Below the pieces are notes generated by a model. It had not been told where the DNA came from. It ran no database searches and was given only the letters and a program-made list of their open reading frames with translations. 24,367 bases of DNA from a virus: IMG/VR virus record IMGVR_UViG_3300022890_000642, positions 1 to 24,367 of that record; one strand, written 5' to 3'. Made by a program: the position numbers and the translations under genes. This document shows positions 5,688 to 24,367 of this stretch, one piece after another. Each line of letters opens with the position of its first letter. Position 1 is the first letter of the stretch.

Positions 5688-5745
5688 GTTATTTCGATGT
5701 CAGAGAGCTCAGACTTGTTCAGCTTGCTTCTCTTCAACTGTATAT

Positions 5746-5774: not shown

Positions 5775-5849
5775 GGAAAAAATCAGAAATATTTTGTTCG
5801 TGTCTTGGTAGGTATAGGATCACCGGACCAGGACACGACCAAACGAGCG

Positions 5850-6010: not shown

Positions 6011-6018
6011 CCTCAACC

Positions 6019-6816: not shown

Positions 6817-6843
6817 TGTTATAAGTCCTTATCTATCAACAGG

Positions 6844-7721: not shown

Positions 7722-7734
7722 TCGATTCCCTCCT

Positions 7735-10682: not shown

Positions 10683-10688
10683 TATCCT

Positions 10689-10717
10689 ATTATACCTTAA
10701 TGCCGAGGAGACTTCAA
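10689..10717 (-). promoter_or_regulatory. Promoter P6 (TTGAAG-17-TATAAT)
   Basis: TTGAAG (10712-10717) and TATAAT (10689-10694) on the minus strand, 17 bp apart. Upstream AACCTTTAGAAGTCTTCAGA then ATTTCC matches P1 and P7, and contains a CTTNAGAA direct repeat. It starts the polymerase operon and overlaps the last codons of the upstream DpdA-like gene in its upstream element. Confidence 0.85.
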
Positions 10718-10734
10718 GGAAATTCTGAAGACTT

Positions 10735-11568
10735 CTAAAGGTTTTCTTCGGCCACAGGTACGTAGTTCAATGAAGCAGACAGGAGAGCAATGTTCTCACC
10801 AATGGCTTCTTCCATTTCGGAAGTGAGATCAGTCTCGGTCAGTGACATGAAACCATCCGGTCGAGGACCATCGGTCTCAATGATTGGAACCTCGGGGTCA
10901 AGAACCTTTAGGTCCATTCCCATTCGTACATGCTTCGAGGTATCGACTCCCCGAACAATGTTTCGGACAGCAGGATCGATGTCCAATGGTTGAGTCATTC
11001 CCAGGAGATGAATCTCGACTCGGTGACCGAACTTCTCTGCCCGGGGAATGAGAACTTCGTTGTACAAACGAAGAGTCAATTCATCCCTCGAGATCCCTAG
11101 TGCCTCGGCTGCGATGAAAGGAACACCGACACAATTGAGTCCGGGAAGTGCAACCATCAACTCAGCACACTCTAGGTACTGAGTGATCTCGGAAGCATGG
11201 GGAACGCCCATGAACAATGAATAGGGCCAAAGCTCCCGTAGTTGATATGCGGCTTGAGTTGTTGCGTAAAGGGTTTCGACAGCTCGTCCAGGTACGTCGG
11301 GAAGAACGATCTCAGCCGGGAGAAGACCCAATGCATTGACTGCTTGAATGATTGAGTCAACGTCTGGGTTGTAAGGTTCCCCGTACGCATGGGCTTCGTA
11401 GGCACCATTGTCAAGTATGATGAAATGACTCTTCTCGGCCCTGGCACGATACGCTTCCCGGTACGTTGAATCATTCAAGACTCTGGGGACAAGAATAAGA
11501 TGATACTTGTCTTCGTCCCCTTGAAGTCTATTGATCCATCCACTGGGTACAATGGAAGCAAGTCTCAT
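10735..11568 (-). CDS. dpdA: DpdA-like DNA transglycosylase (7-deazaguanine insertion)
   Basis: This 277-residue protein belongs to the tRNA-guanine transglycosylase-like superfamily as seen in phages with 7-deazaguanine DNA. Visible motifs: YHLILVPRVL (22-31), FIILDNGAYE (49-58, with the Asp that corresponds to the base-binding/acid Asp), LPDVPG (89-94), MGVPH (120-124), VGVPFI (147-152), HLLGMT (187-192) and RGVDTS (206-211; Asp209 fits the catalytic Asp in TGTs). A queuosine-type zinc site is not obvious. The family exchanges guanine in DNA for preQ0. It overlaps folE by 4 bases (ATGA), so the precursor and insertion steps are co-translated. Which DNA sequence it targets cannot be read from the protein. 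Confidence 0.85.
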   Translation of the reverse strand: MRLASIVPSGWINRLQGDEDKYHLILVPRVLNDSTYREAYRARAEKSHFIILDNGAYEAHAYGEPYNPDVDSIIQAVNALGLLPAEIVLPDVPGRAVETLYATTQAAYQLRELWPYSLFMGVPHASEITQYLECAELMVALPGLNCVGVPFIAAEALGISRDELTLRLYNEVLIPRAEKFGHRVEIHLLGMTQPLDIDPAVRNIVRGVDTSKHVRMGMDLKVLDPEVPIIETDGPRPDGFMSLTETDLTSEMEEAIGENIALLSASLNYVPVAEENL

Positions 11569-12167
11569 GAATGAACTCCGTTCATCCGAACGAGATGAAG
11601 GAACTCGTCCTTGGATCCTTTCTCATTGGACAGGAAGCAACCACGGACTGCGGATGTGATTGTCGTAGCCCCTGGCTGCTTGACTCCACGAATCGCCATG
11701 CACTCGTGTTCAGCTTCGACAACAATCATGACACCTTTGGGTTCGAGTACCTTTGACAAGGCCTCGACGATGTCCCGAGTGATGTCTTCTTGAATCGTTA
11801 TCCTGTGAGCGAAGTACTCGACTGCCCTGGACAGTTTCGAAAGACCAACGATCTTTCCAGCCGAACCAGGAACGTATGCGACATGAGCCATCCCCCGAAA
11901 AGGAAGAAGGTGATGTGCGCACAAGGCCGTGAATCGAATGTTGGTAACTGCGACCATCTCTTCGAACCCAGATCGGAAAGAAGTCTTAACGATCTCCTCG
12001 AAGGGTCTTGGGTCCGGAAGAAACTCCATCAGGAACTTGGTGAAACGATCCGGAGTCCCTTGAAGATGTTGATCGTCGTCAATCTCTCCCGGAGTACACT
12101 TGTTCAACATTGCAAGCATCCAACGGACCTTGTCCGCTATCGCCTCCTGGCGTTGCCCCAAATCCAT
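11565..12167 (-). CDS. folE: GTP cyclohydrolase I FolE
   Basis: FolE converts GTP to dihydroneopterin triphosphate, the first step to preQ0 (and folate). Motifs in order: TPDRF, CAHHLLPF (zinc Cys and His near residues 83-86 of the chosen start), GKIVGLSKLSRAVEYFAHR, EAEHECMAIRGVKQPG (third zinc ligand Cys at about 156). The ATG at 12167 is preferred because GAGG lies 8 bases upstream; the ATG at 12194 has AAGAGG directly abutting it with no spacer. The N-terminus overlaps the 3' end of queE either way. About 200 aa, typical of the family. Next to queE and dpdA it serves DNA modification rather than folate supply. Confidence 0.95.
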   Translation of the reverse strand: MDLGQRQEAIADKVRWMLAMLNKCTPGEIDDDQHLQGTPDRFTKFLMEFLPDPRPFEEIVKTSFRSGFEEMVAVTNIRFTALCAHHLLPFRGMAHVAYVPGSAGKIVGLSKLSRAVEYFAHRITIQEDITRDIVEALSKVLEPKGVMIVVEAEHECMAIRGVKQPGATTITSAVRGCFLSNEKGSKDEFLHLVRMNGVHS

Positions 12168-12823
12168 GTGTGCAGCCTCGTTGTTATGTTCCATCCTCTT
12201 AGGATAACCCCTTCAACCAAGTCTTGAGTCCTGTCATGAATGGTTGTACCATCAATGCCTTCGGGCATGATGTAGACATAGTTGTCCGGGATCCCTACTT
12301 CGTCTACGATCATTTGGACCTCGGCCAAGTCTTGTTTCGTTTGAACCACGAACTTGAATCGACTGTTGGCATTGAGGACGTAAGACTTGAGCACCTCGGG
12401 CTTGAATCGTTTGTCCAGATCCACTCCACTATTCTCTAGCTTCGGGGACACGATGTACCATTGGTTACTGTAGTTGCCTGGGAAGAGGGGAATGGTTCCA
12501 TTGGTTTCGTATTCGAAATCCCATCCAGGCATCATGTCCCGAAGTTCATTCAACTCCGGAGCATGAATTAGAGGCTCTCCCCCTGTGCAGACGAGTAGCT
12601 TGGTACAGCCCATTGACATTGAACGAACTGTTTCAATCACAGCGCCAAGAGGCATGTGAGCTGGGTGTTCAGTTCCATTGTAGGTGTACTTCGAATCACA
12701 CCAACTGCATCTGAGGTTGCAACCTTGAAGCCGAAGGAACACAGCCGGACGACCTATCGATGGGCCTTCACCTTGAATCGTTGGACCGAAGATTTCGTTG
12801 ACTGCAAGAGTCGCAGCAGGCAT
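12137..12823 (-). CDS. queE: 7-carboxy-7-deazaguanine synthase QueE (radical SAM)
   Basis: The radical-SAM cluster is CNLRCSWC, with C35, C39 and C42, preceded by EIFGPTIQGEGPSIGRP and followed by the SAM-binding CTGGEPL. The enzyme contracts 6-carboxytetrahydropterin to 7-carboxy-7-deazaguanine. The C-terminus RLHTWIWGNARRR matches the usual RLH-x-x-x-W-G ending, so the overlap with folE is real. GAGGAGA 3 bases before the ATG supports the start, although this lies 56 bases inside the upstream zinc-finger gene. 228 aa, normal size. Confidence 0.95.
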   Translation of the reverse strand: MPAATLAVNEIFGPTIQGEGPSIGRPAVFLRLQGCNLRCSWCDSKYTYNGTEHPAHMPLGAVIETVRSMSMGCTKLLVCTGGEPLIHAPELNELRDMMPGWDFEYETNGTIPLFPGNYSNQWYIVSPKLENSGVDLDKRFKPEVLKSYVLNANSRFKFVVQTKQDLAEVQMIVDEVGIPDNYVYIMPEGIDGTTIHDRTQDLVEGVILRGWNITTRLHTWIWGNARRR

Positions 12824-12962
12824 AGTTCTCCTCTACAAGTCCACAACCATTGTGGAACTTTCGTTTGCATTCATCACATCTTGGTTTGAATTGAACATAG
12901 TCAATTGGCTCTTCACAGACTGGACAGAAAGGAATTCCTTCTCCGAAGTCAACGTTGACCAT
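12768..12962 (-). CDS. Small C4HC3 cross-brace zinc finger protein (PHD/RING-like)
   Basis: In 64 residues there are C-x2-C (13, 16), C-x2-C (29, 32), x4-His (37), x2-Cys (40) and C-x2-C (50, 53), i.e. CPVC...CDECKRKFHNGC...CDSC. This spacing is the C4HC3 pattern of PHD fingers and related RING/treble-clef folds that bind two zinc ions. Its ATG directly follows the queD stop, and it overlaps queE by 56 bases, so it is embedded in the preQ0 cluster. A zinc-ribbon DNA- or RNA-binding role, or a partner of the modification enzymes, is possible; no function is assigned. Zinc spacing is seen directly; the fold is inferred. Confidence 0.75.
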   Translation of the reverse strand: MVNVDFGEGIPFCPVCEEPIDYVQFKPRCDECKRKFHNGCGLVEENYACCDSCSQRNLRSNDSR

Positions 12963-13406
12963 TCAGACAGGTTCCTCTTCGAGTTCCTTCTTGGTCAAGT
13001 AGGGGAACTCAACTCCAACCTGGTCACCGATCCAAATGGTGGCAGAGCCGGATGCTGTTTCCCAAAGACGGATCTTGTGAACCGGAAGATGAGACATCTG
13101 CTTCAACCGATTCAAGATCCAAAAGCACATGTTCTCGGCAGTCGATCGCACAGGGAGAACGTCGTTCAGGTGGGCGTGGTCCAGAACTGAATCGATCAGT
13201 TTAAACCAGACGTGTTTGATGTCACCGAAGTCGACAACCATTCCTTCGGATGAACCCTCTTGAATCAGATTCCCTCGAAGGGTTAGTTCGACTATGTAAC
13301 TATGCCCATGAACGCGAGCACACTTACCATTGTGTCCATACAATTGGTGACTCGACTCGAATCGAAAGGTCTTGGTGACCTCAGCTATCGGAAGCTGCTG
13401 CATCAA
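12963..13406 (-). CDS. queD: 6-carboxytetrahydropterin synthase QueD
   Basis: QueD converts dihydroneopterin triphosphate to 6-carboxytetrahydropterin. The PTPS/QueD fold is shown by zinc ligands H20 (FESSHQL) and H33/H35 (VHGHSY), the catalytic Cys29 (GKCARVHGH), the D76-H77 relay (LDHAHLND) and the substrate-binding Glu116 (WETASG). AGGAGGTGAT 2 bases before the ATG gives a perfect ribosome site. It overlaps the upstream ribbon-helix-helix gene by 26 bases. 147 aa, slightly longer than E. coli QueD by an acidic tail. Confidence 0.95.
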   Translation of the reverse strand: MMQQLPIAEVTKTFRFESSHQLYGHNGKCARVHGHSYIVELTLRGNLIQEGSSEGMVVDFGDIKHVWFKLIDSVLDHAHLNDVLPVRSTAENMCFWILNRLKQMSHLPVHKIRLWETASGSATIWIGDQVGVEFPYLTKKELEEEPV

Positions 13407-13581
13407 TCACCTCCTGCGTGGGCTTGTATTCATCGTCCAGAAGACCTCGGGCCTGGAGATCCTTGAAGATGACCAGTCGGCAGTAAGCTGCCACAGGTCT
13501 CATCTCCAATGCCGCAGCCCTTTCGATCGCCGGGTACACTAGTGGATCAACGGGAACTGATACCAACTTGTGCTGAGCCAT
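13381..13581 (-). CDS. Ribbon-helix-helix-like small protein
   Basis: This 66-residue protein begins MAQHKLVSVPVDPLVYPAIE; a short strand (KLVSVPVD) is followed by two helices (LVYPAIERAAALEMR and VAAYCRLVIFKDLQARG). That is the Arc/CopG arrangement, in which the strand pairs with its dimer partner to contact DNA. The start is 1 base after the resolvase stop. It overlaps queD by 26 bases. A repressor of the preQ0 cluster or a DNA-binding accessory are both possible; the C-terminal tail is acidic. Confidence 0.6.
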   Translation of the reverse strand: MAQHKLVSVPVDPLVYPAIERAAALEMRPVAAYCRLVIFKDLQARGLLDDEYKPTQEVIDAAASDS

Positions 13582-13582
13582 T

Positions 13583-13984
13583 TTACTCCCACTCGTCGTA
13601 ACCTAGTCTCTCTAGGTATGAATACACATGGGCCAGGGCGTCTTTACAGTGACGTTCCTTGTGAACCCGAAAATGCATTTGGGCTTTGTCCAAGAATGCT
13701 TTCCGCCATTGGGGTGGTTGAACAATCAACTCAAGACCCATTAGGTGACAGCATCCCTCGACGAAACCCAAGAGCTTGATCGTGAAGATGGCGTCTGCGG
13801 AACGAGGACCTGACCCAAGGAAATCTTCCATGACCACTACAGTCGTTTCAGAATCCAATTGATGAAGGAACTCGACAATGTCCTTGTGATCTCGAGCAGC
13901 TAGGGCACAGAGAACTTTGCCCGAGTTTGAACAGTGTACAAGTCCCGTCGTCCTGCCAGGATCAATTCCGCAGACACTCATCAA
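13583..13984 (-). CDS. RuvC-like Holliday junction resolvase / RNase H-fold nuclease
   Basis: RNase H-fold motifs: GIDPGRTTGLV (Asp8), TVVVMEDFLGSG (Glu53) and HCKDALAHVYSYL (Asp115). This acidic triad and their order match RuvC-like and poxvirus A22-like resolvases in phages. 133 aa, compact. It sits beside the DUF669-like, Sak4-like and Cas4-like genes, a common phage recombination group. The N-terminus has two adjacent ATGs; either may start it. Confidence 0.85.
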   Translation of the reverse strand: MMSVCGIDPGRTTGLVHCSNSGKVLCALAARDHKDIVEFLHQLDSETTVVVMEDFLGSGPRSADAIFTIKLLGFVEGCCHLMGLELIVQPPQWRKAFLDKAQMHFRVHKERHCKDALAHVYSYLERLGYDEWE

Positions 13985-13990
13985 TGGTTC

Positions 13991-14488
13991 CTAGTAGCCG
14001 CCCGTTGCCTTCTTCTTGCCCTTGTTCGGAGTCTTCTCCTTGGTCTTGGCCTTGGCGATTGCCTTCTTGGGGTCGAGAGCCTTCGGCTCCTTCATCCCGG
14101 CCGGAGGACCTTCGGTGCCCCAGATGTCCAGGACTTCGTTGATCGTTCCGTCGCCGAAGTCCTCGTTCGGGGCTCCGACACTGACGACGATCTCGACACC
14201 GAGCATCGCCTTTTCGTCGATCGTTCCTTCACCGATGTAATCGGTTGCATCCTTGCCCTCGATGCGGGAGAGGACTTGACGAACTCTCCACATCGTGGAC
14301 GGAATGAGAGTGAGATTGAACCAGAGCCGCCGGCGTTCGAACGGCTTCAGGAGCTTCAGGGTCAATCGAAGGTAGGTGTTTCCCTTCTGGGATTCCCTTT
14401 CCTCGATCTCGAAGATGTTTGCCCGGTAGTCACCAGGCTCGAGGGGGAGGAAATCACTCCCGTCCCCATAGTCAACCTTTACGACCAT
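13991..14488 (-). CDS. DUF669-like single-strand DNA-binding protein
   Basis: The start is the ATG at 14488 (MVVKVDYGDGSDFLPLEPGD), one base after the upstream stop; the longer frame to 14605 overlaps the ATPase coding region. Residues ~15-75 form the OB-type strands (PGDYRANIFEIEERESQKGN, TYLRLTLKLLKP, RRLWFNLTLIPSTMW) seen in DUF669 proteins, which accompany Sak4-like recombinases and likely coat single-stranded DNA. The C-terminal ~30 residues are very Lys-rich (KAIAKAKTKEKTPNKGKKKA) instead of the acidic tail usual in SSBs, which suggests DNA contact by the tail rather than partner recruitment. 165 aa. Confidence 0.7.
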   Translation of the reverse strand: MVVKVDYGDGSDFLPLEPGDYRANIFEIEERESQKGNTYLRLTLKLLKPFERRRLWFNLTLIPSTMWRVRQVLSRIEGKDATDYIGEGTIDEKAMLGVEIVVSVGAPNEDFGDGTINEVLDIWGTEGPPAGMKEPKALDPKKAIAKAKTKEKTPNKGKKKATGGY

Positions 14489-14489
14489 G

Positions 14490-15395
14490 TTACTCTTCCT
14501 TCCGGTAAATGATGTCGAGGATTTTCCCCATGTCGGGATCATCCAATTGGCCTGGGAGGATGGGACGTTCCTTTGTTCCCTTTCTTGGCTGACGAACCTT
14601 GGCAATGTTCACACCCTTCTGGGCGAAGTGTAGAACTCGTCCCCCGGACTTGTCTCCAATGTCCAAGAAGCCTACACAATCCATCAAGCCCAGAACCATC
14701 TCAGCACAACCTGGAGTCATCTTCGCTCGACCCACGATTGCACCTGTCGACTCGTCTTTCTTCTCCGTTACCAGGGCCGTGAATAGAATGTTCCAACCCC
14801 GATCACGAGCAAAGTTTCGCCAGGCCTTAACCATCTTCTGCATGGCGGAGTTCGTTCTACCCCAATCACCTAGATTGGGTAGCTGCGGAGTCTTCGAAGA
14901 ACGCATCACGTCTTCGAGGGCCAGCTCCTGCACTGCTGTCAATGAGTCCATTACAATCGTCTTGAATGGATGCTCACCGTGGGCAAGGAACTGATAGATC
15001 CGGAAGATCTGTTCCCATGCCGACTCCACAACGTCACCATCGTCATCCCGAACGGTGGTGGGATGAAAAATCTTGATGTCGTCTCTGTCGGCAATGGATC
15101 GGGTTCCACCTTCGGCATCAATGATTAGAACATCCCTTCCGTGGGGATGATCCTGAGCTGATGCACAGAAGGTAGTCTTCCCGATACCCGGATTGCCATA
15201 GACGAGACAATCGAATCCCCATTCATCCGACAGCTCACCGGGAGTCGAGAAGCTCAACCCTTCCGGCAGCGCCAGGACTGGAGATCCTGTCTTGTCTACT
15301 TTGACTTCTTCTTCCTCGTCGACTTCTTCTTCGACGGCTTCGACTTCTTCTTCAACGGCTTCTTCGCCACCGTCGACGACTTCTTCTCGAGACAA
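14490..15395 (-). CDS. Sak4-like RecA-fold ATPase (recombination)
   Basis: A phage nucleotide-binding ATPase of the AAA_24/Sak4 type: Walker A GNPGIGKTT (67-75), DVLIIDAEGG (88-97) and Walker B TIVMDSLTAVQEL (Asp150). Sak4 proteins anneal or exchange strands with a partner SSB. The first ~34 residues are almost all Glu/Asp/Val (EEEVEAVEEEVDEEEE). The start is TTG with GGGAGGAGAT upstream. This start lies 100 bases inside the preceding gene, whose Lys-rich tail is read from the same DNA in another frame. About 300 aa including the acidic extension; the core alone is of usual size. Confidence 0.85.
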   Translation of the reverse strand: MSREEVVDGGEEAVEEEVEAVEEEVDEEEEVKVDKTGSPVLALPEGLSFSTPGELSDEWGFDCLVYGNPGIGKTTFCASAQDHPHGRDVLIIDAEGGTRSIADRDDIKIFHPTTVRDDDGDVVESAWEQIFRIYQFLAHGEHPFKTIVMDSLTAVQELALEDVMRSSKTPQLPNLGDWGRTNSAMQKMVKAWRNFARDRGWNILFTALVTEKKDESTGAIVGRAKMTPGCAEMVLGLMDCVGFLDIGDKSGGRVLHFAQKGVNIAKVRQPRKGTKERPILPGQLDDPDMGKILDIIYRKEE

Positions 15396-15778
15396 TCGAT
15401 CTCCTCCCGGGGCTCAGTCGTGCCCCTTTGTTGGGTGTAGCCGTATGTGGCTAGTTGAATTTCCATTCTCAGTTTTGAAACCCGAGCCATGTGTTTTTCG
15501 TACGCAGGTCCAGATGTGCCTACTTGTTCCAACTGTCGAAGCCACATGTTGACATCAATGAGAACAGCGTAACGTTCGAGAGCCAGTTGAAGGATGCCGT
15601 CAACCTTTGGACCATGCGTTGCGGCATTCAACATGGTCTGAAGTGCTCCGGCCTTCTTCATACTTGGTTCGATTGGATCCATTGGTGTCCGTTGGATCGT
15701 GTCCGGAAGACTTTTCCAATGAATCACGGACGAAGCCAAGGCTTCATACCGAATCTGATAGAGTTGTTCGTTACTCAT
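15296..15778 (-). CDS. Unknown helical protein with Lys-rich C-terminal tail
   Basis: This 160-residue protein is predicted helical through residue ~130 (for example LEQVGTSGPAYEKHMARVSK, then LRMEIQLATYG) and ends in a strongly basic tail (KKSSTVAKKPLKKKSKPSKK then KSTRKKKSK). The ATG has AGGG before it. The tail is encoded by the same 100 bases as the acidic N-terminus of the Sak4-like ATPase in another frame. Its place in the recombination operon between a Cas4-like nuclease and Sak4 suggests a DNA-associated helper; no family recognised. Confidence 0.65.
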   Translation of the reverse strand: MSNEQLYQIRYEALASSVIHWKSLPDTIQRTPMDPIEPSMKKAGALQTMLNAATHGPKVDGILQLALERYAVLIDVNMWLRQLEQVGTSGPAYEKHMARVSKLRMEIQLATYGYTQQRGTTEPREEIDCLEKKSSTVAKKPLKKKSKPSKKKSTRKKKSK

Positions 15779-15886
15779 TGTACCCTAAACATGGATAGAC
15801 CAGAGAGAGGTGCGTTGGAGAAAAGGGGAAAATGGGGTTGTGAGGTTGACGCAACACTCCCCCTGGTCTTGTTCCATGGCAGTGGA

Positions 15887-17020
15887 CTATTCGTTGGCCA
15901 GTTCGACGAGGCCGTCGACACTGGAGACGATTCCGGGCTTCAATGTCCGGACCTTTTTCAGCGTTGGAGGCTCGGTCTTGATCCAGAACCGAAGAAGCTC
16001 TTCTGCGTCTTTCAGTTCGGACTCGTCTCGGGCTCCGTTGAAAGCTTGACAAGCTTGACGAGTCTTCGTGTCACAGTCCCAACATCCTTCCCAACGTCTG
16101 TTGGGATAGATTGCGGGATCCGACTCGTCGATATAGGCCATGTCTTTGAAGATGGCCGAAGTGTTTCGTTCCCAGGAACGAATCTCTCCCCAGTCGGCAG
16201 GGATCATGATACGTTTGAAGAACGGGTTCTCGGGACTCTTGTCTCGGCTGCGTAGTCTCTCGACGAAGTCAGCGTACTCGGGATCGTTTGGATCCATTCC
16301 AGCCTCAACCAGTCTCTTGATGTAGAGACCAGCCGTGGTCTTGATCCATCTCTTGGACATGGCTCCGTTCTTGAGCAGCTGGGGTTCGGTCGGTTCACCT
16401 TTGTAGATGCCGTCGTAGATACATCCACCCAAGACATCGTCTGGGAACAAACGAGCAAAGGCCCATTCATACCCGACGAATTGTTCGTTCAAGTTGACGA
16501 TGAACTCTGGGTTTGGTGTCTGGGAAAACGTCTTGTGATCAACCAACCAGTAGGCATTGGTTAACTTGTTTCGAATGAGCATGTCCCAGGTGCCCACATA
16601 GAACATGTCGTCGTAGGTTCCCGGCATTGGAATCTTGAACGGTTGTTCGACGACCAGGATCTCGAACTCATCCCCGAAGGGAGGAATTCCATAGTGATCC
16701 AGGTAGAGTTCAGTGTACAGTCGAGCCCTTGCAGCTGACTCTTCTACTCGGTCGTCTTCTTCCTGGCCCCAACTGGTTCCAATCTGCTTGGCATAAGTCT
16801 CAGCCATTGAAACCATTTCGGCATGGATCCATTTGTCCAATGCCGGCTGCAACTCTTGGCCACTGGACACAATGGCAATGCCCTCATGGGCAACTGAACC
16901 CAACCAAAGGGCAGTTGCAGGAGCACCTGGTGTTCGAAGGGATCGTCGACTGGGACTTGTTAAATCCCATTTGAATCGACAACGTTTGAACGCCTGCATG
17001 TCTGAATGACTGATGTCCAC
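15887..17020 (-). CDS. Cas4-like PD-(D/E)XK nuclease with 4Fe-4S site
   Basis: Motifs in order: C14 in FKRCRFKWDL, GSVAHEG (His45), GTWDMLIRN (Asp146), WLVDHKTF (Asp161-x-Lys163), and the QxxxY motif Gln180/Tyr184. Near the C-terminus GCWDCDTKTRQAC (C313, C316, C324) completes, with Cys14, the 4Fe-4S site of Cas4/AddB nucleases. Such phage enzymes process 3' overhangs for recombination. The GTG start at 17020 is chosen: AAGGAG lies 6 bases upstream. It is the first gene of the operon that ends with dpdA, about 35 bases below promoter P7. No CRISPR array or other cas gene is near, so a Cas role is unlikely. Confidence 0.85.
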   Translation of the reverse strand: MDISHSDMQAFKRCRFKWDLTSPSRRSLRTPGAPATALWLGSVAHEGIAIVSSGQELQPALDKWIHAEMVSMAETYAKQIGTSWGQEEDDRVEESAARARLYTELYLDHYGIPPFGDEFEILVVEQPFKIPMPGTYDDMFYVGTWDMLIRNKLTNAYWLVDHKTFSQTPNPEFIVNLNEQFVGYEWAFARLFPDDVLGGCIYDGIYKGEPTEPQLLKNGAMSKRWIKTTAGLYIKRLVEAGMDPNDPEYADFVERLRSRDKSPENPFFKRIMIPADWGEIRSWERNTSAIFKDMAYIDESDPAIYPNRRWEGCWDCDTKTRQACQAFNGARDESELKDAEELLRFWIKTEPPTLKKVRTLKPGIVSSVDGLVELANE

Positions 17021-17054
17021 TGCTGACTCCTTATGATCCTCGATTGCTACCTCT

Positions 17055-17084
17055 ATTATATAACGACCCCTATGAGACCTTCAA
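17055..17084 (-). promoter_or_regulatory. Promoter P7 (TTGAAG-18-TATAAT)
   Basis: TTGAAG (17079-17084) and TATAAT (17055-17060) on the minus strand, 18 bp apart. Upstream AACCTGAAGACCTTTATAGA then ATTTCT matches P6. It starts the recombination and preQ0 operon, immediately after the stop of the phosphoribosyltransferase gene. Confidence 0.8.
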
Positions 17085-17103
17085 AGAAATTCTATAAAGG
17101 TCT

Positions 17104-17700
17104 TCAGGTTTTCTCATACCGGATAACGTACGGGAGATGACGATACTCCCCATTGTAATCAAGGCCGTAGCCGACAATGAACTCACCAGGTTCAACGTCC
17201 AGGCCCGAATGGATTTGACGAACGAATGCTTTCTCCGGATGCCTGATCAGGGCTCGAGCAATCCTGTATGCTTCCGCCATCGTCTTCGGAATAACTTTTC
17301 GGAAGAGGCATATGGTTCTGGTTGAACTATTACCCCTCCCACTTAACCAACGGTGAATGGCTAAGATCGTATCGCCAGAGTCAATGATGTCATCGAGTAC
17401 TATTATTCGTACTCCAGCCAGGTTGGGAGTTGGCCCAACGAAATCAATCTTGACATGTCCAGATGAAACGTCCCCTGTGTAGCTAGTAGCCTTAATGAAA
17501 TGAACAATGACCCCGGCATCATGTTCAAAGTACCTGATGAAGTCAGAGGCGAAGACGAAAGCCCCATCCATTACAACTAGGATATGGATTGGTGTATCGT
17601 TTCCCGGGTAAGTGTTTAAGTGGTCAATCGTTTCCTTTGCCAACCGAGACACTGCTGTCTGAATTTGTCTCTCGGTATAGATAACCTGATCACTCAGCAT
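17104..17700 (-). CDS. Hypoxanthine/guanine-type phosphoribosyltransferase
   Basis: Type I PRT fold: LVVMDGAFVFASDFIR (41-56), flexible loop IKATSYTGD (69-77), PRPP motif VLDDIIDSGDT (101-111), C-terminal purine-binding EFIVGYGLDYNGEYRHLPYV. This matches bacterial Hpt, which salvages hypoxanthine/guanine to IMP/GMP with PRPP. The ATG at 17700 (MLSDQVIYTERQIQ) has GGAAG 3 bases upstream and overlaps the helicase by 11 bases; the frame to 17793 lacks support. 198 aa, normal. In a preQ0 phage it may supply guanine nucleotides or handle the guanine released by DpdA; that is inference. Confidence 0.85.
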   Translation of the reverse strand: MLSDQVIYTERQIQTAVSRLAKETIDHLNTYPGNDTPIHILVVMDGAFVFASDFIRYFEHDAGVIVHFIKATSYTGDVSSGHVKIDFVGPTPNLAGVRIIVLDDIIDSGDTILAIHRWLSGRGNSSTRTICLFRKVIPKTMAEAYRIARALIRHPEKAFVRQIHSGLDVEPGEFIVGYGLDYNGEYRHLPYVIRYEKT

Positions 17701-19045
17701 CGTCTTCCTCCAGTGTGAAAACTTCCTCGAGTAGTGCTTGAAGTTTATGTTCCAATCGTTTCCCTTGGACTTTGAACACACCCTCATCGACACTCTTCTC
17801 GACTCGTAGGTACCAAGACAGCACTTGATCGAATTCAGACCCTCGACGGATGAATCGTCCTAGTGCTTGTTCAATTGTTTTCGGTACCCAATCCTCTTCG
17901 TAGAAGACAACCTGGTTACAGAATTGTAGGTTGGCTCCTTCGGTTAGTGATCCCAACGTAGCAACGAGCACCCCTGTGCGAGATGCTTTCCAGTCCTGGA
18001 CTATGTCGTCACGTTTCATTGGATCAATTGAACCGGTAACAAGAAAGGAATCTCGACCAGTCACCGCTTCTTGAATCACTCGAGCCGTTTCCTTGTACCA
18101 ACAATACACTGCGACATGCCTTGTCGTTCGGTCGGTTAGGATCCCTTTCAGGGCATCAAGCTTCGGGTTTTTATTCCCAGGAGGTGTTCCTGTTAAGCCC
18201 CGAAGGTGATGTATTAGGGCTCCACCGTTCTTGACATAGATTGCCTTGGGCAAGTCGTCATGTTCAACTCGCCAGTTCTCTTTTGCATCCCGATACGTCT
18301 TCCTGATTGAAGGTGGCATCTCGACAGTGATCGTTGTCGGCATCTCGGGTGGGAATTCTAACCCTACCTCATGAGGTAACCTTCGAAGCATGTGTCGAGA
18401 CAACATCTTATTGAACCCTTTAGGATCGAATAGGTCACCAACCTTATTGGCCCAAGGTGTCCTATGTATTCTACAGTGGTGACCTACGAACCTCCAATAG
18501 GATGTGAACTCTTTCGGGTTGCAAAGTCGGAGTAAAGGAAACGTGTCACCAGCATCTTTGACAATTGGATCAGCTGTCAGGAGAAATAGATACGGTGTGT
18601 TCAACTTGTACGCAGCCTTGGTTGCTTTTGTTCCTCGACCCCTAAGACGATGAGCTTCGTCACAGATAACACAATGCCATCTCCGACGAAGTAGTTGAGT
18701 GTAACCTTTACTCGGGGCCAATGCATAGGCCAAGATGGCATAGGAAACAATCAACCAGTCAACGTCTTCAGCATTGACAGCTGCCTGCTTTTCATGCTGA
18801 GCCCCTTGAGCAACATAGATCGTGGGCTCGTTTGGATCCTGATACATCTCTCGAATGTACCTGATCCAATTCTTAATCAGGTACGCTGGGCAAACAATCA
18901 ACTTGGGCCCAGCTCCGGCTACTTGCCAAGCAGCCTCAATGGCAGGGTACGATTTTCCTACACCGTAATCGTCCCCTAGGATGTGCCGACGTTTAGACTT
19001 AAGGATCTCGACAGCCTCATCCTGATATGGATCAAGAGTAATCAA
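17690..19045 (-). CDS. SNF2-like superfamily 2 helicase
   Basis: SF2 motifs: Q-like LDPYQDEA, motif I GDDYGVGKS (near residue 25-33; usually D-x-G-x-G-K-T), Ia LIVCPAYLIKNW, II CDEAHRL (DEAH at ~130), III LTADP (usually LTGTP), IV HVAVYCWYKE, V EGANLQFCNQVVF and VI QALGRFIRRGS. DDYGVGKS with DEAH and the EEDWVPKTIEQALGR arrangement indicate an SNF2/UvsW-like translocase. The second of two TTGs (19045) is chosen because AAAGGG lies 7 bases upstream, and it overlaps the preceding stop as TTGA. About 451 aa. It is in the primase-helicase operon, so replication fork or recombination remodelling is plausible. Confidence 0.9.
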   Translation of the reverse strand: MITLDPYQDEAVEILKSKRRHILGDDYGVGKSYPAIEAAWQVAGAGPKLIVCPAYLIKNWIRYIREMYQDPNEPTIYVAQGAQHEKQAAVNAEDVDWLIVSYAILAYALAPSKGYTQLLRRRWHCVICDEAHRLRGRGTKATKAAYKLNTPYLFLLTADPIVKDAGDTFPLLRLCNPKEFTSYWRFVGHHCRIHRTPWANKVGDLFDPKGFNKMLSRHMLRRLPHEVGLEFPPEMPTTITVEMPPSIRKTYRDAKENWRVEHDDLPKAIYVKNGGALIHHLRGLTGTPPGNKNPKLDALKGILTDRTTRHVAVYCWYKETARVIQEAVTGRDSFLVTGSIDPMKRDDIVQDWKASRTGVLVATLGSLTEGANLQFCNQVVFYEEDWVPKTIEQALGRFIRRGSEFDQVLSWYLRVEKSVDEGVFKVQGKRLEHKLQALLEEVFTLEEDDAE

Positions 19046-19254
19046 TCCCAATCCCTTTCAAGACTAACTCGAAGGTAATCGGTGACAATGTCATTTGTCA
19101 GGAAGAAGGTGGCGGTGATCAAATTGAACTCAGCCACACGGAGCTGGATTACTCCTGCGTTATGTAGAGTGAACTCTTCGAAGCCCAGGAAGAACGTAAC
19201 ACTAATGCGATTGGGCCCTTGAGTTGCTCTCAACTTCAAATGGAATCGTTTCAT
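19042..19254 (-). CDS. Small protein, unknown function
   Basis: This 70-residue protein (MKRFHLKLRATQGPNRISVT start) is predicted beta-rich with mixed charges. The ATG follows the upstream stop by 1 base and its stop overlaps the helicase start. No recognised domain. Confidence 0.65.
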   Translation of the reverse strand: MKRFHLKLRATQGPNRISVTFFLGFEEFTLHNAGVIQLRVAEFNLITATFFLTNDIVTDYLRVSLERDWD

Positions 19255-19255
19255 G

Positions 19256-19531
19256 TTACCACCCAGGATCTTCTAACGTCCCCATGTCAGTGACAATATT
19301 CAACATCCCATTGTCCATTAGCTGGGCAGGGAAGTATGCTCGAACCTTCCCTTCCATAACGTCAAGGATTCTTTCATGAGTCTTGGGTTGTTCTTCCCGA
19401 TGAATGAACATAGGACCAATCTGAGACATAGGAGGCCCGTATATAAGTAGAGGTCCTTCGCCGTATCCTGTACCCATTTCAGCATCAGGTTTGACTGGGA
19501 CTTGAATCTTGACTACTACATTCAATGGCAT
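19256..19531 (-). CDS. Small acidic protein, unknown function
   Basis: This 91-residue protein begins MPLNVVVKIQVPVKPDAEMG and has Gly-rich loops (MGTGYGEGPLLIYGPP) and a C-terminal DMGTLEDPGW. It starts 4 bases after the stop of the 42-residue membrane protein gene and ends one base before the next ATG. No family recognised. Confidence 0.65.
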   Translation of the reverse strand: MPLNVVVKIQVPVKPDAEMGTGYGEGPLLIYGPPMSQIGPMFIHREEQPKTHERILDVMEGKVRAYFPAQLMDNGMLNIVTDMGTLEDPGW

Positions 19532-19535
19532 TGAT

Positions 19536-19664
19536 TCACCACAGTATTGCTAAGGCTACAGCAAGGAACATGAGAAGGTAACTAAGCCACATGAACCATG
19601 GAGTCTTTACCCTTGGGGCTAGATACCCCGTACCACAACAACGCCAACATATTCTATTTGCCAT
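19536..19664 (-). CDS. 42-residue protein: CxxC zinc motif plus one membrane segment
   Basis: The frame begins MANRICWRCCGTGYLAPRVK, giving a C-x2-C-C-G-T-G-Y knuckle like those of DnaJ-type or zinc-ribbon repeats, then a ~20-residue hydrophobic segment ending FLAVALAILW. The start chosen is the ATG at 19664; the longer frame upstream is the reverse-frame shadow of the neighbouring gene. AGG lies 6 bases before the ATG. It follows the stop at 19672 by 7 bases. Function unknown. Confidence 0.5.
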   Translation of the reverse strand: MANRICWRCCGTGYLAPRVKTPWFMWLSYLLMFLAVALAILW

Positions 19665-19671
19665 TGGGAAC

Positions 19672-19875
19672 CTAAACGGTAACGAATTCCCTCGACTTGA
19701 GATCGAGTCCGTACATGCCAGTGATCTCCGGAAGCCCGTGGACAAGAGCCAACTCGTGGCACCTTTTCTGAGGGGACTTCGGCATTCCACACTGGAGCAT
19801 GATGAGTGGAGTCTGCATTGACTTCTTCAATGACTCCACTTCTTCTTCCGTTGCGAACACTCCTGTCTTCGTCAT
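19672..19875 (-). CDS. Small protein, unknown function
   Basis: This 67-residue protein (MTKTGVFATEEEVESLKKSM start) is helical at its N-terminus and overlaps the queC stop by 4 bases (ATGA), so it is translationally coupled to queC. It has Cys residues in LQCGMP and KRCHEL, without a full zinc pattern. No family recognised. Confidence 0.6.
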   Translation of the reverse strand: MTKTGVFATEEEVESLKKSMQTPLIMLQCGMPKSPQKRCHELALVHGLPEITGMYGLDLKSREFVTV

Positions 19876-20600
19876 GATGTTGACTCCAAGTAGACGGTTG
19901 TGTCAATGTAACTTGACTCGGCGAATGCTTCTTTTCTCTCGACACACGTTCCACACCTACCACAATGGAATTCTTTACCTTCGTAACAAGACCATGTGTG
20001 GACACCTAGGAAACTAGCCATGGCTTGTTCGGATCTGAAACCCAAATTGGCCCAGCTATTGGTAATCGTTTGACTCAACAACTCAGCCTTGGACAGCTGA
20101 ACGAATGGACGTTGAATCATGACTGGTTCGTAATGGCAAACCCCAAGGGCTCGATTCATTGCGTCCAGGAACTCCTGACGACAGTCAGGATAGATTGCAT
20201 GGTCACCTGCATGGGCTGCGATGACTACATTGCCCACACCTTGTGCGATCGCATAGCCGCCAGCCAGGGCCAGAAGGATCATGTTGCGATTGGGTACAAC
20301 CGTTGCCTTCATTGTCAGGTCTTTGTAATGACCCTTCGGGATCTCTGCACAGGGGGAGAGTAAAGCGCTTCCCGCAAGAAGTCCTCCGAGTTGTGTTAGG
20401 TCCAGGACTTTGATTGGAATCATAAGGGCTTGGGCTATTTCAATAGCCTTGGCCACTTCATTGACATGTCTCTGACCGTACTGGATCGAGAGAGCATAGA
20501 CTGCACCAGTGAAGTCTAGTTTTGTTTGGATGAGGGCACAAGTTGAATCCAAACCCCCTGAGAGCAAGACGACTGAACTACTATAGTCCAATGACTTCAT
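19872..20600 (-). CDS. queC: 7-cyano-7-deazaguanine (preQ0) synthase QueC
   Basis: The PP-loop is VVLLSGGLDST; the zinc site is CYEGKEFHCGRCGTC, with four Cys near the C-terminus. QueC amidates and dehydrates carboxy-deazaguanine to preQ0 with ATP. The ATG at 20600 (MKSLDYSSSVVLLSGG) has GGGAGAGA about 8 bases upstream; the longer frame to 20690 belongs to the overlap with the upstream gene. 242 aa, close to the usual ~230. There is no fused amidotransferase domain. It is 7-10 kb away from queD/queE/folE/dpdA, in the replication operon. Confidence 0.95.
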   Translation of the reverse strand: MKSLDYSSSVVLLSGGLDSTCALIQTKLDFTGAVYALSIQYGQRHVNEVAKAIEIAQALMIPIKVLDLTQLGGLLAGSALLSPCAEIPKGHYKDLTMKATVVPNRNMILLALAGGYAIAQGVGNVVIAAHAGDHAIYPDCRQEFLDAMNRALGVCHYEPVMIQRPFVQLSKAELLSQTITNSWANLGFRSEQAMASFLGVHTWSCYEGKEFHCGRCGTCVERKEAFAESSYIDTTVYLESTS

Positions 20601-21042
20601 CGATTGATCTCTCCCTACACAGTACGACGTCAAAGACAATGATTCTGAACTTGAAGGGTGAACCTCGATTCGCACACATGACGTGTTCAACTACGATTTC
20701 ATAACCCCATCGTTGAAGCATCTGGTGCATCTCGGGTGTGTCGAGGACACAGCCAAGAGTGATTCCATTCATCTTTGCCAGTACAGTGTCTCGATTGAAA
20801 CGATCTCCCATGGAATCAAGTGGACGATAAACCCACTCGGGGCCTTCGTACCAATTGACCGTAGCAATCTCATCAAGGACCAGGAACATCTCCTTTTCAG
20901 TCCACCAGTCTGCGAGGATATCACCCTTCTTGAGACCATCCTTACCATAGAACTCTGGAGGTGGTCCTTGTCTGTTTGCATAAACAACCATTGCATCCAT
21001 CAATGCCCTATTCATATTGGGGTGATGTGTTAATTGTCCCAT
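20581..21042 (-). CDS. Unknown protein between primase-helicase and queC
   Basis: This 153-residue protein (MGQLTHHPNMNRALMDAMVV start) begins at an ATG overlapping the primase-helicase stop as TGATG and overlaps queC by 20 bases. It is acidic with Trp/Tyr-rich middle (ADWWTEKEMFLVLDEIATVN) and a basic-acidic C-terminus. No domain recognised. Coupling on both sides suggests a role in replication or modification. Confidence 0.7.
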   Translation of the reverse strand: MGQLTHHPNMNRALMDAMVVYANRQGPPPEFYGKDGLKKGDILADWWTEKEMFLVLDEIATVNWYEGPEWVYRPLDSMGDRFNRDTVLAKMNGITLGCVLDTPEMHQMLQRWGYEIVVEHVMCANRGSPFKFRIIVFDVVLCRERSIDEVIGL

Positions 21043-23471
21043 CAGTCACCACCTTCGTCGTCAATCCGGAAGAAGACATAGAGCCTACCGCCACCGTGAT
21101 GCGGTTGTCTGAAACGTAGTTCGTACCCTTGGGCAGCTAGAACAGGTACAACTTCCTGAAGCTTCTGCCCTAGTTTGATTGAAGACGAGATGACCTTTGT
21201 GAACTCAGGGTCATCGGATAGGATGGCTAGTTTCCTGTACAGTTCGGATGGTTTGATTCGAAGCCCTAGGTTCTTTTCCATACTCAACCAGTTCAGGAGT
21301 GCTTGCATGAACACATCCCGTTCAAGGACAGCTTGAGTCTGAGCCTTCTTCATGAATCGAATCAAGTGTTTCGGGTTTCGGTTATGGTGCCTGCAGGCTG
21401 CGATGAGGAGTGGAGCGAAATCAGCCATGCGTAGCTGTTCTTCGACTTCCTCTTCTTCCCTCAACAGCTTAACCACCTTGTGCAGATCCCAAATGATCTC
21501 ATGCCATAGTTGATTTCTATGGTGTAGGATCTCAGCCTTCAATGCACCCTCAGGTTTGAATGTTTCCCGAGCCCGAGTGGCTAGAATGATTGCTCTGTCA
21601 GCAATATCATCCCTCATGAACTGAGCAGACATGGTAGTGATTCCAAACGAGCATTGGAGTCGGTACTCAGCCATGTCATTGTTGGTGTAAAGGATACGTC
21701 TTCTCTCCCTAACACCAGTTGCAATTGTCGACAAGGCATTCGGTAACCATCTCAGAGAGTTATCAATCCCATCCAAAAAGAGGTGGCTTTGGTTACGACA
21801 CATCTCCTTGAACTGAGCCTCTTCAAAGGGTACATCCGAAACGGATCCCGAAGGGCCATAGAGTAACCAAGCCATTGACTTGAACAGAGTCGTCTTCCCG
21901 GATCCTTTATCCCCTTCAAGAATGAGCATGGGTTTGGTCTCGAGCAGGTCGGCAAAGAACAATGAGTAGAACCAAACTCGTACCAGGAATTGAGCATCGT
22001 CCGGATTCAATAGGTGAGCATTGAACTTACACTTGGTGAAGATCAATTCATCCAGCAGACTGAATCCTTCTTCGGTCCCTGTGTAGTTGTATCGAATTGG
22101 GGTGTAAGGTCTCGATGACTTTGGTGTCAAGAAGTAGACACCATCTAACCCATTGACTTGAATGTCTTGTTCAATACCATTAGTCCTGTGGTATTGGTCG
22201 TTGTGATCAGAGATGTATAGTGTCCCTGATTCAACATTGAAATGGGCTAATGTTCTTAGGGTTACTTTCGTTCCTTCATGACAAGCCCGGGCTTGGAAGT
22301 GCTGTCGCAGGTAATTGTATTCTCCTGTCGTAGCATTCAACCCATAAAGTAGGTACAAAAGGTGACCTGTTTCGACTTTGCCTTTGGAAAGGTCGTAAAG
22401 TCTCTTGTTGTAATGGAATGCGGACATGATCTCATCGTCGATGTAGTAGAATCTACCCCTAACTTCCATGTCCTTAAACAACATGTCAGCTAGGAGTTCA
22501 GTCCGTTGTTGATGAGGCATCTTGGTCTTGCGTAAGTCGTCAATGCGTCGAAGGATTGGTCTCTCGTCCTCGGGCAATTGGTGCTGCGAATGGGCTCTAC
22601 CACAATCATGCCACAAGTCAAGAGACTGATTGTATCGACGAATGGTAAACTTATTGTTCACCGACTCGAGAGCAAGTGCAAAGACTTCGTCTCTCGTCAT
22701 CCCCATTCGGAAGCATTGATTGTATAGATACCAAAGAGACCCTGAACGGTCCTTTGACCTTCTATCAAGGACATCGTCTAGCTTCTTTGGCCACTGTTCG
22801 GAGAACTTATCCTTTAGGTTCCTCCGCTTGGGTAGAGTATCCTCATCAGGAGTGGGAAGTTCTTGTGCAGCCATGTCAGCAGGTGCCTGGGGAATATCGA
22901 TGAAATCGTCAGGGGTGTATCGAGTCATTGGTGAAGCTACGTCAACGACCTTGACACTTTGGACGGGATCGTACTTGGTGTTGCTGAATCCAGGGATGCG
23001 AAGGAGTTGGCTTCGATCCCAACCGCCTCGGTCAACAGACAAGTAGTGATAGGCGAGGGCTTTGTTTAGCCTTTCAGCTTCTGTTGTCTCTATTGGTTCC
23101 TCGAGGAGCCAATAACAATGGTGTTTCTTCTTGGATGTTTCAACTACTATTGAAGGGGGTGGTTTGAAGCCGGCTGGAGATATGTCTTCGTCGTCGCAGT
23201 CCATGTACAGGCATTGAGTCATGAGGGCTGCGTTATCCTTACGCCAGTCGCCAGCTTCCTGGTAAGGATGTGGTGTGAAGAAGAAGTTGTGTAGTCTATC
23301 GACTTCAATGTCGAACTCGATATCCTCACCCCTGTGCAAAGCTGCGATTGGAAAGGATCCATGTTTCGGTCTGAATCCTTCTGGAGATGGTGTTGCTATT
23401 GCGATGCGAACAATACCCTCTAGTGAGGGAGGGAATATTTCCCTGAGGAAGTCAGTAGGAATCGTGTACAT
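21042..23471 (-). CDS. Primase-helicase: AEP-type primase fused to AAA+/SF3-like helicase
   Basis: The N-terminal part resembles archaeo-eukaryotic primase (RepB/Prim-Pol type): hDhD motif LYMDCDDED (Asp91/Asp93), HHCYWLLEEP (His117/His118) and SQLLRIPGFSNTKY (154-167). The C-terminal part has Walker A GDKGSGKTT (520-528) and Walker B HLFLDGID (Asp567), then a sensor-like LYTNND. A D5/SF3-type replicative helicase fits. 809 aa. It lies in the operon of promoter P8 after a 70-residue gene, and the next gene overlaps its stop. This and the family A polymerase form the replication core. Confidence 0.9.
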   Translation of the reverse strand: MYTIPTDFLREIFPPSLEGIVRIAIATPSPEGFRPKHGSFPIAALHRGEDIEFDIEVDRLHNFFFTPHPYQEAGDWRKDNAALMTQCLYMDCDDEDISPAGFKPPPSIVVETSKKKHHCYWLLEEPIETTEAERLNKALAYHYLSVDRGGWDRSQLLRIPGFSNTKYDPVQSVKVVDVASPMTRYTPDDFIDIPQAPADMAAQELPTPDEDTLPKRRNLKDKFSEQWPKKLDDVLDRRSKDRSGSLWYLYNQCFRMGMTRDEVFALALESVNNKFTIRRYNQSLDLWHDCGRAHSQHQLPEDERPILRRIDDLRKTKMPHQQRTELLADMLFKDMEVRGRFYYIDDEIMSAFHYNKRLYDLSKGKVETGHLLYLLYGLNATTGEYNYLRQHFQARACHEGTKVTLRTLAHFNVESGTLYISDHNDQYHRTNGIEQDIQVNGLDGVYFLTPKSSRPYTPIRYNYTGTEEGFSLLDELIFTKCKFNAHLLNPDDAQFLVRVWFYSLFFADLLETKPMLILEGDKGSGKTTLFKSMAWLLYGPSGSVSDVPFEEAQFKEMCRNQSHLFLDGIDNSLRWLPNALSTIATGVRERRRILYTNNDMAEYRLQCSFGITTMSAQFMRDDIADRAIILATRARETFKPEGALKAEILHHRNQLWHEIIWDLHKVVKLLREEEEVEEQLRMADFAPLLIAACRHHNRNPKHLIRFMKKAQTQAVLERDVFMQALLNWLSMEKNLGLRIKPSELYRKLAILSDDPEFTKVISSSIKLGQKLQEVVPVLAAQGYELRFRQPHHGGGRLYVFFRIDDEGGD

Positions 23472-23474
23472 TGA

Positions 23475-23687
23475 TTAGATCACTTCCTCGACTATGCCAT
23501 TGAGTAGGCGTGCTCTCGCATACCAGGTATGTGGCTCGGGTGAGTGAGGCCCTTCGATAGAGACTTCTCCATCGGTCGTATTGGCTGAGGGGAAAAGCGA
23601 ATTGGGTTGAAAGGCGATGATTCTTTCTCCCCTTACTAGGGCTGCTTTGAGTGCTGACTTTGACTGGAAGTTAGGTCGAACGTACAT
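23475..23687 (-). CDS. Small protein, unknown function, first gene of replication operon
   Basis: This 70-residue protein (MYVRPNFQSKSALKAALVRG start) has AGGAGA 4 bases before its ATG and follows promoter P8 by about 23 bases. It has a basic N-terminus and a beta-rich middle (RIIAFQPNSLF, HTWYARARLLNG). The primase-helicase starts 3 bases after its stop. No family recognised. Confidence 0.7.
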   Translation of the reverse strand: MYVRPNFQSKSALKAALVRGERIIAFQPNSLFPSANTTDGEVSIEGPHSPEPHTWYARARLLNGIVEEVI

Positions 23688-23710
23688 GTCTTCTCCTATC
23701 GTGATGATCT

Positions 23711-23739
23711 ATTATAACTGATTCAGCATGAGACATCAA
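23711..23739 (-). promoter_or_regulatory. Promoter P8 (TTGATG-17-TATAAT)
   Basis: TTGATG (23734-23739) and TATAAT (23711-23716) on the minus strand, 17 bp apart, with TCTCAT after the -35 as in P7, and a pyrimidine/A-T-rich upstream stretch (CCCTTATTTTCTCC). It starts the replication operon. Confidence 0.85.
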
Positions 23740-23807
23740 GGAGAAAATAAGGGAAACCTTCGACTATCATTACACTCTTGGGTGCTTTATGTTTAACTAC
23801 CACAATA

Positions 23808-23911
23808 GTCAACCCCCCCGGAGAGGCGCTCGTTGAGCTATCTTATATCAATAAATTGTCTAAAATCATCTCTAAAGAAATACAGATTCACGGCTCTCCT
23901 GGGGGGGCGAC
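23808..23911. repeat. Poly-C inverted repeat around AT-rich DNA
   Basis: The left arm GTCAACCCCCCCGGAGAG (from 23808) and the right arm CTCTCCTGGGGGGGCGAC (to 23911) pair imperfectly, each with a run of seven C or G. Between them are about 62 bases of A/T-rich sequence. No gene covers it convincingly. Origin, packaging or regulatory function cannot be decided. Confidence 0.6.
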
Positions 23912-23970
23912 TAATCCCATAAAACGCAGACAGTTTAAGACTGGATTGTGCTCTCCCTGTGCTGGTCGCG

Positions 23971-24360
23971 CTGTGGAGGCTCCAAAAAACAACCGGTGCG
24001 TATATGACGTCTAGAGTGCGTTGAGCGCGGTTAGAGAGGGGGTGCGCAATAGTCAAGCCATTTGTGGTGGTCGAAGGGCCTGTTCGATGCTAGCATTTGG
24101 TCGGTTTATGAGGGAATTAGCTATTGGGCGCATGGTTTACCTAGATAACCCTGTGTTTTATGGGTTTTAGGCTCATATCCGTGTGGAACGCGGTCTGGTT
24201 TGGAGCTCTGTGGAGCCTCCAGGAAACAGGTGCGCGTTAGACAGCGTCTACTGGCCGTTGTGAGGGCTTCTAGAGCGGTGGGGCGTTTGGGTAGCCATCG
24301 GCAGATTGGAACGGAAATGCTAGCATTTGTCGGTTTACCGAGTGGCCAAATGCTAGCATC
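23971..24360. repeat. Non-coding end: diverged ~230-bp duplication with ATGCTAGCAT palindromes
   Basis: The stretch 23740-24367 has no supported gene. CTGTGGAGGCTCCA at 23971 recurs as CTGTGGAGCCTCCA at 24208; ATGCTAGCATTTGGTCGGTT at 24087 recurs at 24317 with one base missing. The second copy forms a perfect 13-bp inverted repeat (24317-24329 with 24347-24359), each arm containing the palindrome ATGCTAGCAT. These could be operators for a repressor or replication initiator sites. Confidence 0.6.
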
Positions 24361-24367
24361 TCCCCCC

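Follow-up and report, generated by a model that had tools for sequence, protein, structure and literature searches.

A 705-bp candidate replication origin between the divergent operons of an uncultured tailed phage

A non-coding gap separates leftward replication genes from rightward packaging and head genes

The DNA analyzed here (the window) is an entire IMG/VR virus contig of 24,367 bases from an uncultured virus that is a tailed phage, with bacteria probably its host group; two scans of bacterial genomes for a host gave no relative. Two other contigs overlap it. Contig IMGVR_UViG_3300023246_000619 (G001, metagenome 3300023246) matches window positions 15037-24367 at 98.8%, is 100% identical over 22599-24367 and extends beyond the right end of the window, and contig IMGVR_UViG_3300022858_000548 (G002) matches positions 1-19242 at 99.6%, with its first 7142 bases forming the reversed start of G001 at 99.99% identity. 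The overlaps of the three contigs give a ring of ~52.4 kb (39,001 + 5,125 + 8,269). Word counts for the whole phage given below are based on 51,729 bases read, and those for the window alone on its 24,367 bases.

The leftward genes code for a primase, helicase, DNA polymerase, Sak4-like protein, QueC- and QueE-like proteins and GTP cyclohydrolase I, and comprise a replication and preQ0-pathway set, while the rightward set codes for packaging and head proteins (TerL, portal, Mu F-like protein and capsid). Between the two sets is an 828-bp non-coding gap that runs from the start of a leftward 70-aa ORF (position 23687) to the start of the rightward terS gene (window-equivalent 24516). Extension of the contig to the right, a check called for by an initial annotation of this DNA, was provided by G001, which reveals that terS begins 149 bp past the window end and that terL is the next gene.

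The first gene of the leftward operon is the 70-aa ORF (23475-23687, minus strand), which is without a family match and has a codon score of 0.061, close to the lower limit of the phage genes (0.056-0.268) and exceeded by that of the best wrong-frame ORF (0.139). The adjoining gene codes for an 809-aa primase (21042-23471, minus strand) that is a candidate initiator. Its N-terminal region matches the AEP-type RepB_primase family above the cut-off (Pfam PF16793, E 3.9e-6, 27.3 bits against 24.3), the C-terminal region has a weak VapE-like match that falls below the cut-off (PF05272, E 6.9e-5, 22.8 bits against 25) as well as several P-loop AAA matches near residue 513, and the protein also matches PHROG primase families. 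Neither Pfam nor NCBIfam revealed a DNA-binding domain in the primase, and a sequence search of the PDB gave no relative; AlphaFold models of two parts of the protein had a mean pLDDT of 37-38 and were unusable.

Promoter-like sites are present at both edges of the gap, neither overlapping the repeats described below. The leftward sigma-70-type site TTGATG-17-TATAAT (23711-23739, minus strand) agrees at 10 of 12 positions, and the rightward site TTGCTT-17-TATAAT (24445-24473, plus strand) has a -35 box that agrees at 3 of 6. An automatic promoter scan listed the leftward site alone, with 1.3 sites expected in shuffles, and TATGATATAATA of the rightward site recurs at three places in the phage. 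Inside the gap there is no promoter-like site. Four ORFs of 72-90 aa in the gap score -0.20 to 0.005 per codon, as compared to 0.056-0.268 for 15 training genes and to a mean of -0.18 (sd 0.12, maximum 0.14) for 98 wrong-frame ORFs. Two of the four are 1.5 sd above the wrong-frame mean, and coding content in the gap is not convincing by this score.

The least stable DNA of the phage lies within a C7/G7 inverted repeat

The initial annotation described a C7/G7 inverted repeat flanking AT-rich DNA, and this is indeed present at 23806-23913, where the centroid fold has a 20-pair stem and a 62-nt A+T-rich loop. The C7 (23813-23819) and G7 (23901-23907) runs pair within this extended inverted repeat, and the DNA between the arms (23825-23889) is 68% A+T. 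When folded as single-stranded DNA the repeat has a z score of -4.9, with none of 200 shuffles equally stable. Phage-wide it is tied for fifth among repeats with loops of at least 20, and 10 of 25 joined-piece shuffles contained a best inverted-repeat score as high as or higher than its own; the C7/G7 repeat alone is therefore not beyond chance genome-wide. The identity of G001 with the window across this region also indicates that the poly-C runs, for which the initial annotation had named an assembly artefact as a refuting outcome, are not an artefact of the window contig alone.

Enclosed by these arms is a 60-bp segment (23832-23891) with the lowest duplex stability of the phage map, ranking first among 51,489 60-bp windows, which we consider a candidate DNA unwinding element. 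The two promoter-like sites fall within the second and fifth entries of the non-overlapping list of least stable segments.

A diverged tandem duplication carries palindromic words

To the right of the C7/G7 repeat is a diverged tandem duplication of ~210 bp (~230 bp by the earlier estimate), with copy 1 at 23916-24121 and copy 2 at 24140-24357. The local score of 94 compares with a mean of 31 and a maximum of 53 in 1000 dinucleotide shuffles, none of which was as good, so that the reported duplication is real. Palindromic words are among the best-preserved parts of the duplicated blocks, and both of the repeated sequence pairs noted earlier were recovered in each copy. Specifically, the GGAG-N-CTCC palindrome occurs as TGGAGGCTCCA in copy 1 (23974-23984) and as TGGAGCCTCCA in copy 2 (24211-24221), and ATGCTAGCATTTG with (G)TCGGTTTA is likewise found in both copies, with sequence inspection and word search placing ATGCTAGCATTTG followed by GTCGGTTTA at 24087-24108 (plus strand) in copy 1. 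There are exactly three occurrences of ATGCTAGCATTTG in the window, all of them in the gap region. The last pair, as had been claimed, forms a perfect 13-bp inverted repeat (24317-24329 and 24347-24359), which sits within 17-nt arms that are 94% complementary and constitutes a cruciform-capable inverted pair of ATGCTAGCATTTG around CGGTTTACCG (24313-24363).

A third word, CCCTGTGC, was identified by word count and occurs within CTCTCCCTGTGCTGG at 23955-23962 (plus strand). The C6 run at the contig end (24362-24367, plus strand) continues in G001 as CCCCCCTGTGCTGG, which supplies another CCCTGTGC copy, oriented like that at 23955 and 410 bp away from it. Two direct CCCTGTGC copies thus frame the duplicated block. 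Overall, the order of words in the gap is CCCTGTGC, TGGAG palindrome, ATGCTAGCAT, TGGAG palindrome, ATGCTAGCAT, inverted ATGCTAGCAT and CCCTGTGC.

We considered whether the duplication could represent two modules of one or more structured non-coding RNA genes, an explanation that we regard as very improbable. The fold of copy 2 together with the contig end is indeed more stable than those of shuffles (plus strand z -2.2, minus strand z -5.2), but this signal comes largely from the inverted pair at 24313-24363, and copy 1 has z scores of just -0.8 and 0.0. Furthermore, no Rfam family matched at gathering scores, the lack of an internal promoter-like site also speaks against an RNA gene, and the TGGAGSCTCCA palindrome has a centre of 1 nt that is not an RNA loop.

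A DNA word search for relatives sharing the region returned G001 alone. Searching the region with blastn gave no match to phages at 1e-5, with six records and matches of 24-27 bases appearing at E values up to 1, and gave no relative sharing the region among plasmids. Searches of viral contigs with the primase, TerS, DNA polymerase, helicase and capsid returned contigs of the same phage plus one contig with a 37% capsid match. Since no relative sharing the region was found, conserved and incidental sequence are told apart by the internal duplication alone. A strain comparison between the window and G001 is uninformative on constraint because there are 0 mismatches over 20001-24367.

The words of the gap recur across the phage

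The initial annotation had named random scatter of these sites through the genome as a refuting outcome. This is not the case for ATGCTAGCAT, which occurs 4 times in 51,729 bases against ~0.02 expected, three times in the gap and once in a 410-aa head-region ORF. The other two words do also occur elsewhere, far above expectation. There are 6 copies of TGGAGSCTCCA in 51,729 bases (~0.04 expected), of which two are in the gap, one is at 2224 where transcription units converge and three are within ORFs to the right. No 8-mer of the phage is more strongly over-represented than CCCTGTGC, which has 18 copies against 0.9-1.3 expected, or 19 (13 on the plus strand, 6 on the minus strand) when the copy across the contig end is counted. 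The window alone contains 10 copies (0.66 expected; none of 100 shuffles had as many), for example at 1763, 8981, 12581, 23330 and 23955, and many copies are inside ORFs. Position -2 is A or C in all 18 full contexts, the three bases after the word are purines in 15, 16 and 15 of 18, and MNCCCTGTGCRRR describes a looser 13-bp frame of this word. Note that these expectations are post hoc, as TGGAGNCTCCA and ATGCTAGCAT were tested since they had been seen in the region and CCCTGTGC was obtained by ranking words of the same sequence. Literature searches with long words listed matches that, by title, are not about phages, and searches with the 8-mer as a whole word gave none, as did those with the metagenome identifiers.

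Of the parts of the region, the dispersed word CCCTGTGC is explained least well. One explanation, which we think unlikely though worth stating, is that CCCTGTGC in its MNCCCTGTGCRRR frame is a genome-wide DNA signal, and that the gap is a hub where this signal together with the two palindromic words would start replication and perhaps packaging. In that case CCCTGTGC could serve, for example, as a Chi-like or boundary site specific to this phage or as the recognition site of its RepB-type primase, and the phage would illustrate how a short DNA signal can shape a genome. CCCTGTGC is close to TGGAGSCTCCA in more than the gap alone, because both words meet again around 2 kb, where CCCTGTGC (plus strand, 1763), TGGAGGCTCCA (2224) and CCCTGTGC (minus strand, 2559) are present within 800 bp. 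This segment (1763-2559) is where rightward and leftward genes converge and is near the cumulative GC-skew maximum (at about 1 kb of the window). It may be a terminus-like counterpart of the gap region. A putative 75-aa ORF (2105-2332) overlaps the TGGAGGCTCCA palindrome at 2224.

The dispersed words also bear on a transcription-control role, in which the palindromes would be operators for a phage regulator of early versus late expression, either immunity-like or stoperator-like. The divergent promoter-like sites at both edges and the duplicated palindromic sites would suit such a role, and the dispersed TGGAGSCTCCA and CCCTGTGC recall the stoperators described in PMC9283540; like mycobacteriophage stoperators, CCCTGTGC is a short word repeated over the genome. 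However, no candidate operator touches a promoter-like site, as the nearest palindromic word is 85 bp from the -35 box of the rightward site and 234 bp from that of the leftward site. The proteins searched, which cover part of the ORFs of the map and include many without a match, contain neither a recognizable integrase nor a repressor. The lack of a repressor among them differs from the stoperator systems, as does the fact that CCCTGTGC copies, many of them inside ORFs, ignore the direction of transcription, being sense in 9 cases and antisense in 8 relative to their own transcription unit outside the gap. We therefore consider transcription control improbable, and the earlier suggestion of an immunity-type control region finds no backing in these results.

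The neighboring terS gene makes a packaging site a serious rival

Since terS begins just 149 bp beyond the window, a terminase recognition or packaging site (cos, pac or direct-terminal-repeat ends) immediately upstream of terS is a serious rival that we regard as possible, but less probable than an origin. Under this explanation TerS would bind the duplicated palindromes, and cutting might fall at the two direct CCCTGTGC copies or elsewhere in the gap. As in phage cos and direct-terminal-repeat (DTR) regions, the gap is non-coding, located where early and late genes diverge and beside terS; a physical end at the gap is here a candidate only. Consistent with packaging, terL follows terS, and the 241-aa TerS protein weakly matches the terminase small subunit of a Streptomyces phage (32%, covering 43% of the protein). 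The second CCCTGTGC copy is also interrupted by the end of the window contig (CCC|TGTGC). Furthermore, a distant TerL relative (26.8%) belongs to Paenibacillus phage Unity, whose cluster is described in PMC6070908 as having 377-378-bp direct terminal repeats and 50-56-kb genomes, sizes that are near the 410-bp CCCTGTGC spacing and the ~52-kb map observed here. The deposited Unity record has no exact terminal repeat of 21-600 bases, so this record is not usable as a template.

Several observations weigh against a packaging site. Contig G001 crosses the end of the window contig without a break, and the three long contigs together have six ends at six different map places, just one of which is in the gap, itself 1.6% of the map. 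Among named phages the best TerL matches (35-39%) are to Mu-like phages rather than DTR phages, and in a 12-row TerL tree the TerL of this phage is outside both the Mu-like and the DTR groups, which favors neither packaging type. With 19 copies over the phage, CCCTGTGC cannot alone mark an end. The terS gene itself was named from its place before terL, the weak terminase match and helix-turn-helix matches, and these last are below their cut-offs. A packaging site would also leave the stability minimum unexplained. 

In the search for relatives sharing the region, TerL yielded six other contigs (L007-L012) at 32-52%. The three whose ORFs were compared (L007, L008 and L010) have another gene, or the end of the contig, upstream of the gene that precedes terL. 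In L007 (511-2775) the TerL ORF is 754 aa long with an extra ~300-aa block that is intein-like by eye, and an HNH-like ORF is present on the other strand.

The gap is most likely a replication origin

Easily melted DNA, two old block copies and rare repeated words together make a replication origin the most likely function of the gap. Specifically, we tentatively assign the main replication origin of the phage to the 705 bp between the two divergent operons (23740-24444, window numbering continued into G001), a reading that we hold with somewhat less than even confidence. In its favor are the top-ranked stability minimum enclosed by the C7/G7 repeat, the duplicated palindromes and over-represented words, the adjoining operon of a RepB-type primase with an AAA+ region, the location of the promoter-like sites outside the repeats and the fact that no ORF in the gap is clearly coding. 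Against it are the lack of an array of many short iterons, a C7/G7 repeat that does not exceed chance map-wide and is 5' of the replication gene, the weak AAA+ match of the primase and its lack of a recognized DNA-binding domain, the failure of the searches made to give a relative sharing the region, and the proximity of terS, which also suits packaging. The cumulative GC-skew minimum (~21.9 kb) is near the gap, which favors an origin, but it falls within the primase gene, ~2 kb left of the gap, and GC skew also tracks gene direction so that it is confounded. Thus, of the initial proposal of an origin or immunity-type region next to the replication operon, the origin part is supported, short of proof, by position, stability minimum and repeats, and the immunity part is not. 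The gap could also serve as both origin and packaging region.

The anatomy, duplication, word enrichment, stability minimum and gene order are computed, and on this basis we propose protein binding and a replication start as follows. Transcription from the leftward promoter would supply two proteins, that of the 70-aa ORF and the 809-aa primase with its RepB-type and AAA+ regions. The primase, or a partner, may then bind the sites within the duplication, TGGAGSCTCCA and ATGCTAGCATTTG-GTCGGTTTA, each present once per ~210-bp copy, as well as the inverted third ATGCTAGCATTTG. The A+T-rich 60-bp segment enclosed by the C7/G7 arms would then melt, with the G+C-rich arms either limiting the bubble or forming a stem-loop. 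The exposed strands could then be primed, with forks departing both ways.

This candidate origin has several features in common with known stem-loop systems. In PMC4234260, the AEP primase-SF3 helicase of pRN1 (ORF904) is described as needing a ~100-bp stem-loop close to its gene, with a 21-nt stem and a 58-nt loop at 75 C; this stem-loop is required for replication, although those authors lacked direct proof that it is the origin. The same paper describes a similar protein and a similar stem-loop near the replication gene of phage BIP-1. The phage studied here likewise has a ~100-bp DNA stem-loop (stem ~20, loop ~60) near the gene for an AEP-type primase with a helicase-like region and, as with orf56 in pRN1 (PMC4234260), a small ORF ahead of the replication gene. 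In contrast to pRN1 and BIP-1, the stem-loop is 5' rather than 3' of the replication gene and has duplicated palindromes beside it, and where the pRN1 protein has an SF3 helicase, the AAA+ region here is weakly VapE-like below the cut-off, with no winged-helix match in Pfam or NCBIfam. A second comparison is with RSF1010, whose RepB' primase recognizes the hairpin initiation sites ssiA and ssiB (PMC4434180). Shared with the RSF1010 oriV are a RepB-family primase domain and inverted hairpin-forming elements, and the GTG inside CCCTGTGC recalls the GTG proposed there as the RepB' start (PMC4434180). Unlike RSF1010, no RepC-like iterons were seen here, and primase and AAA+ region are parts of one polypeptide. 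Because of these differences from known stem-loop origins, we state that the gap may work like, not that it is, a pRN1- or RSF1010-type origin.

The origins of SaPIs and P4 have repeats near an A+T-rich stretch beside the gene for a primase/helicase initiator. Their iterons are short and many, unlike the two long diverged copies observed here. If the origin assignment is true, then the gap would provide a compact 705-bp candidate origin from a phage without a close relative found. It would also justify asking whether RepB-type primases of phages, as has been proposed for pRN1 and BIP-1, act at stem-loop or A+T-rich origins next to the operon that encodes them.

Additional features of the phage contigs

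Several observations outside the gap were also made. The segment at 3420-6020 of the window is G+C-rich, with small leftward ORFs, TATAAT-like sites and large inverted repeats that share ACGCGATCTATG. The strongest inverted repeat of the map is at 4223-4330 (score 73; none of 25 shuffles as high), and positions 6020-6300 contain many near-copies of a CAGCC...CCAGTAT-type unit that by eye form a degenerate repeat. Two contigs, L020 and L021 (metagenomes 3300022858 and 3300022890), have an identical first base that is inside a glycosyltransferase-like ORF. Finally, mismatches between the window and G001 cluster in two ~1-kb patches, at 19001-20000 (100 mismatches) and 10001-11000 (40 mismatches), and this patchiness suggests local recombination or hypervariable genes.
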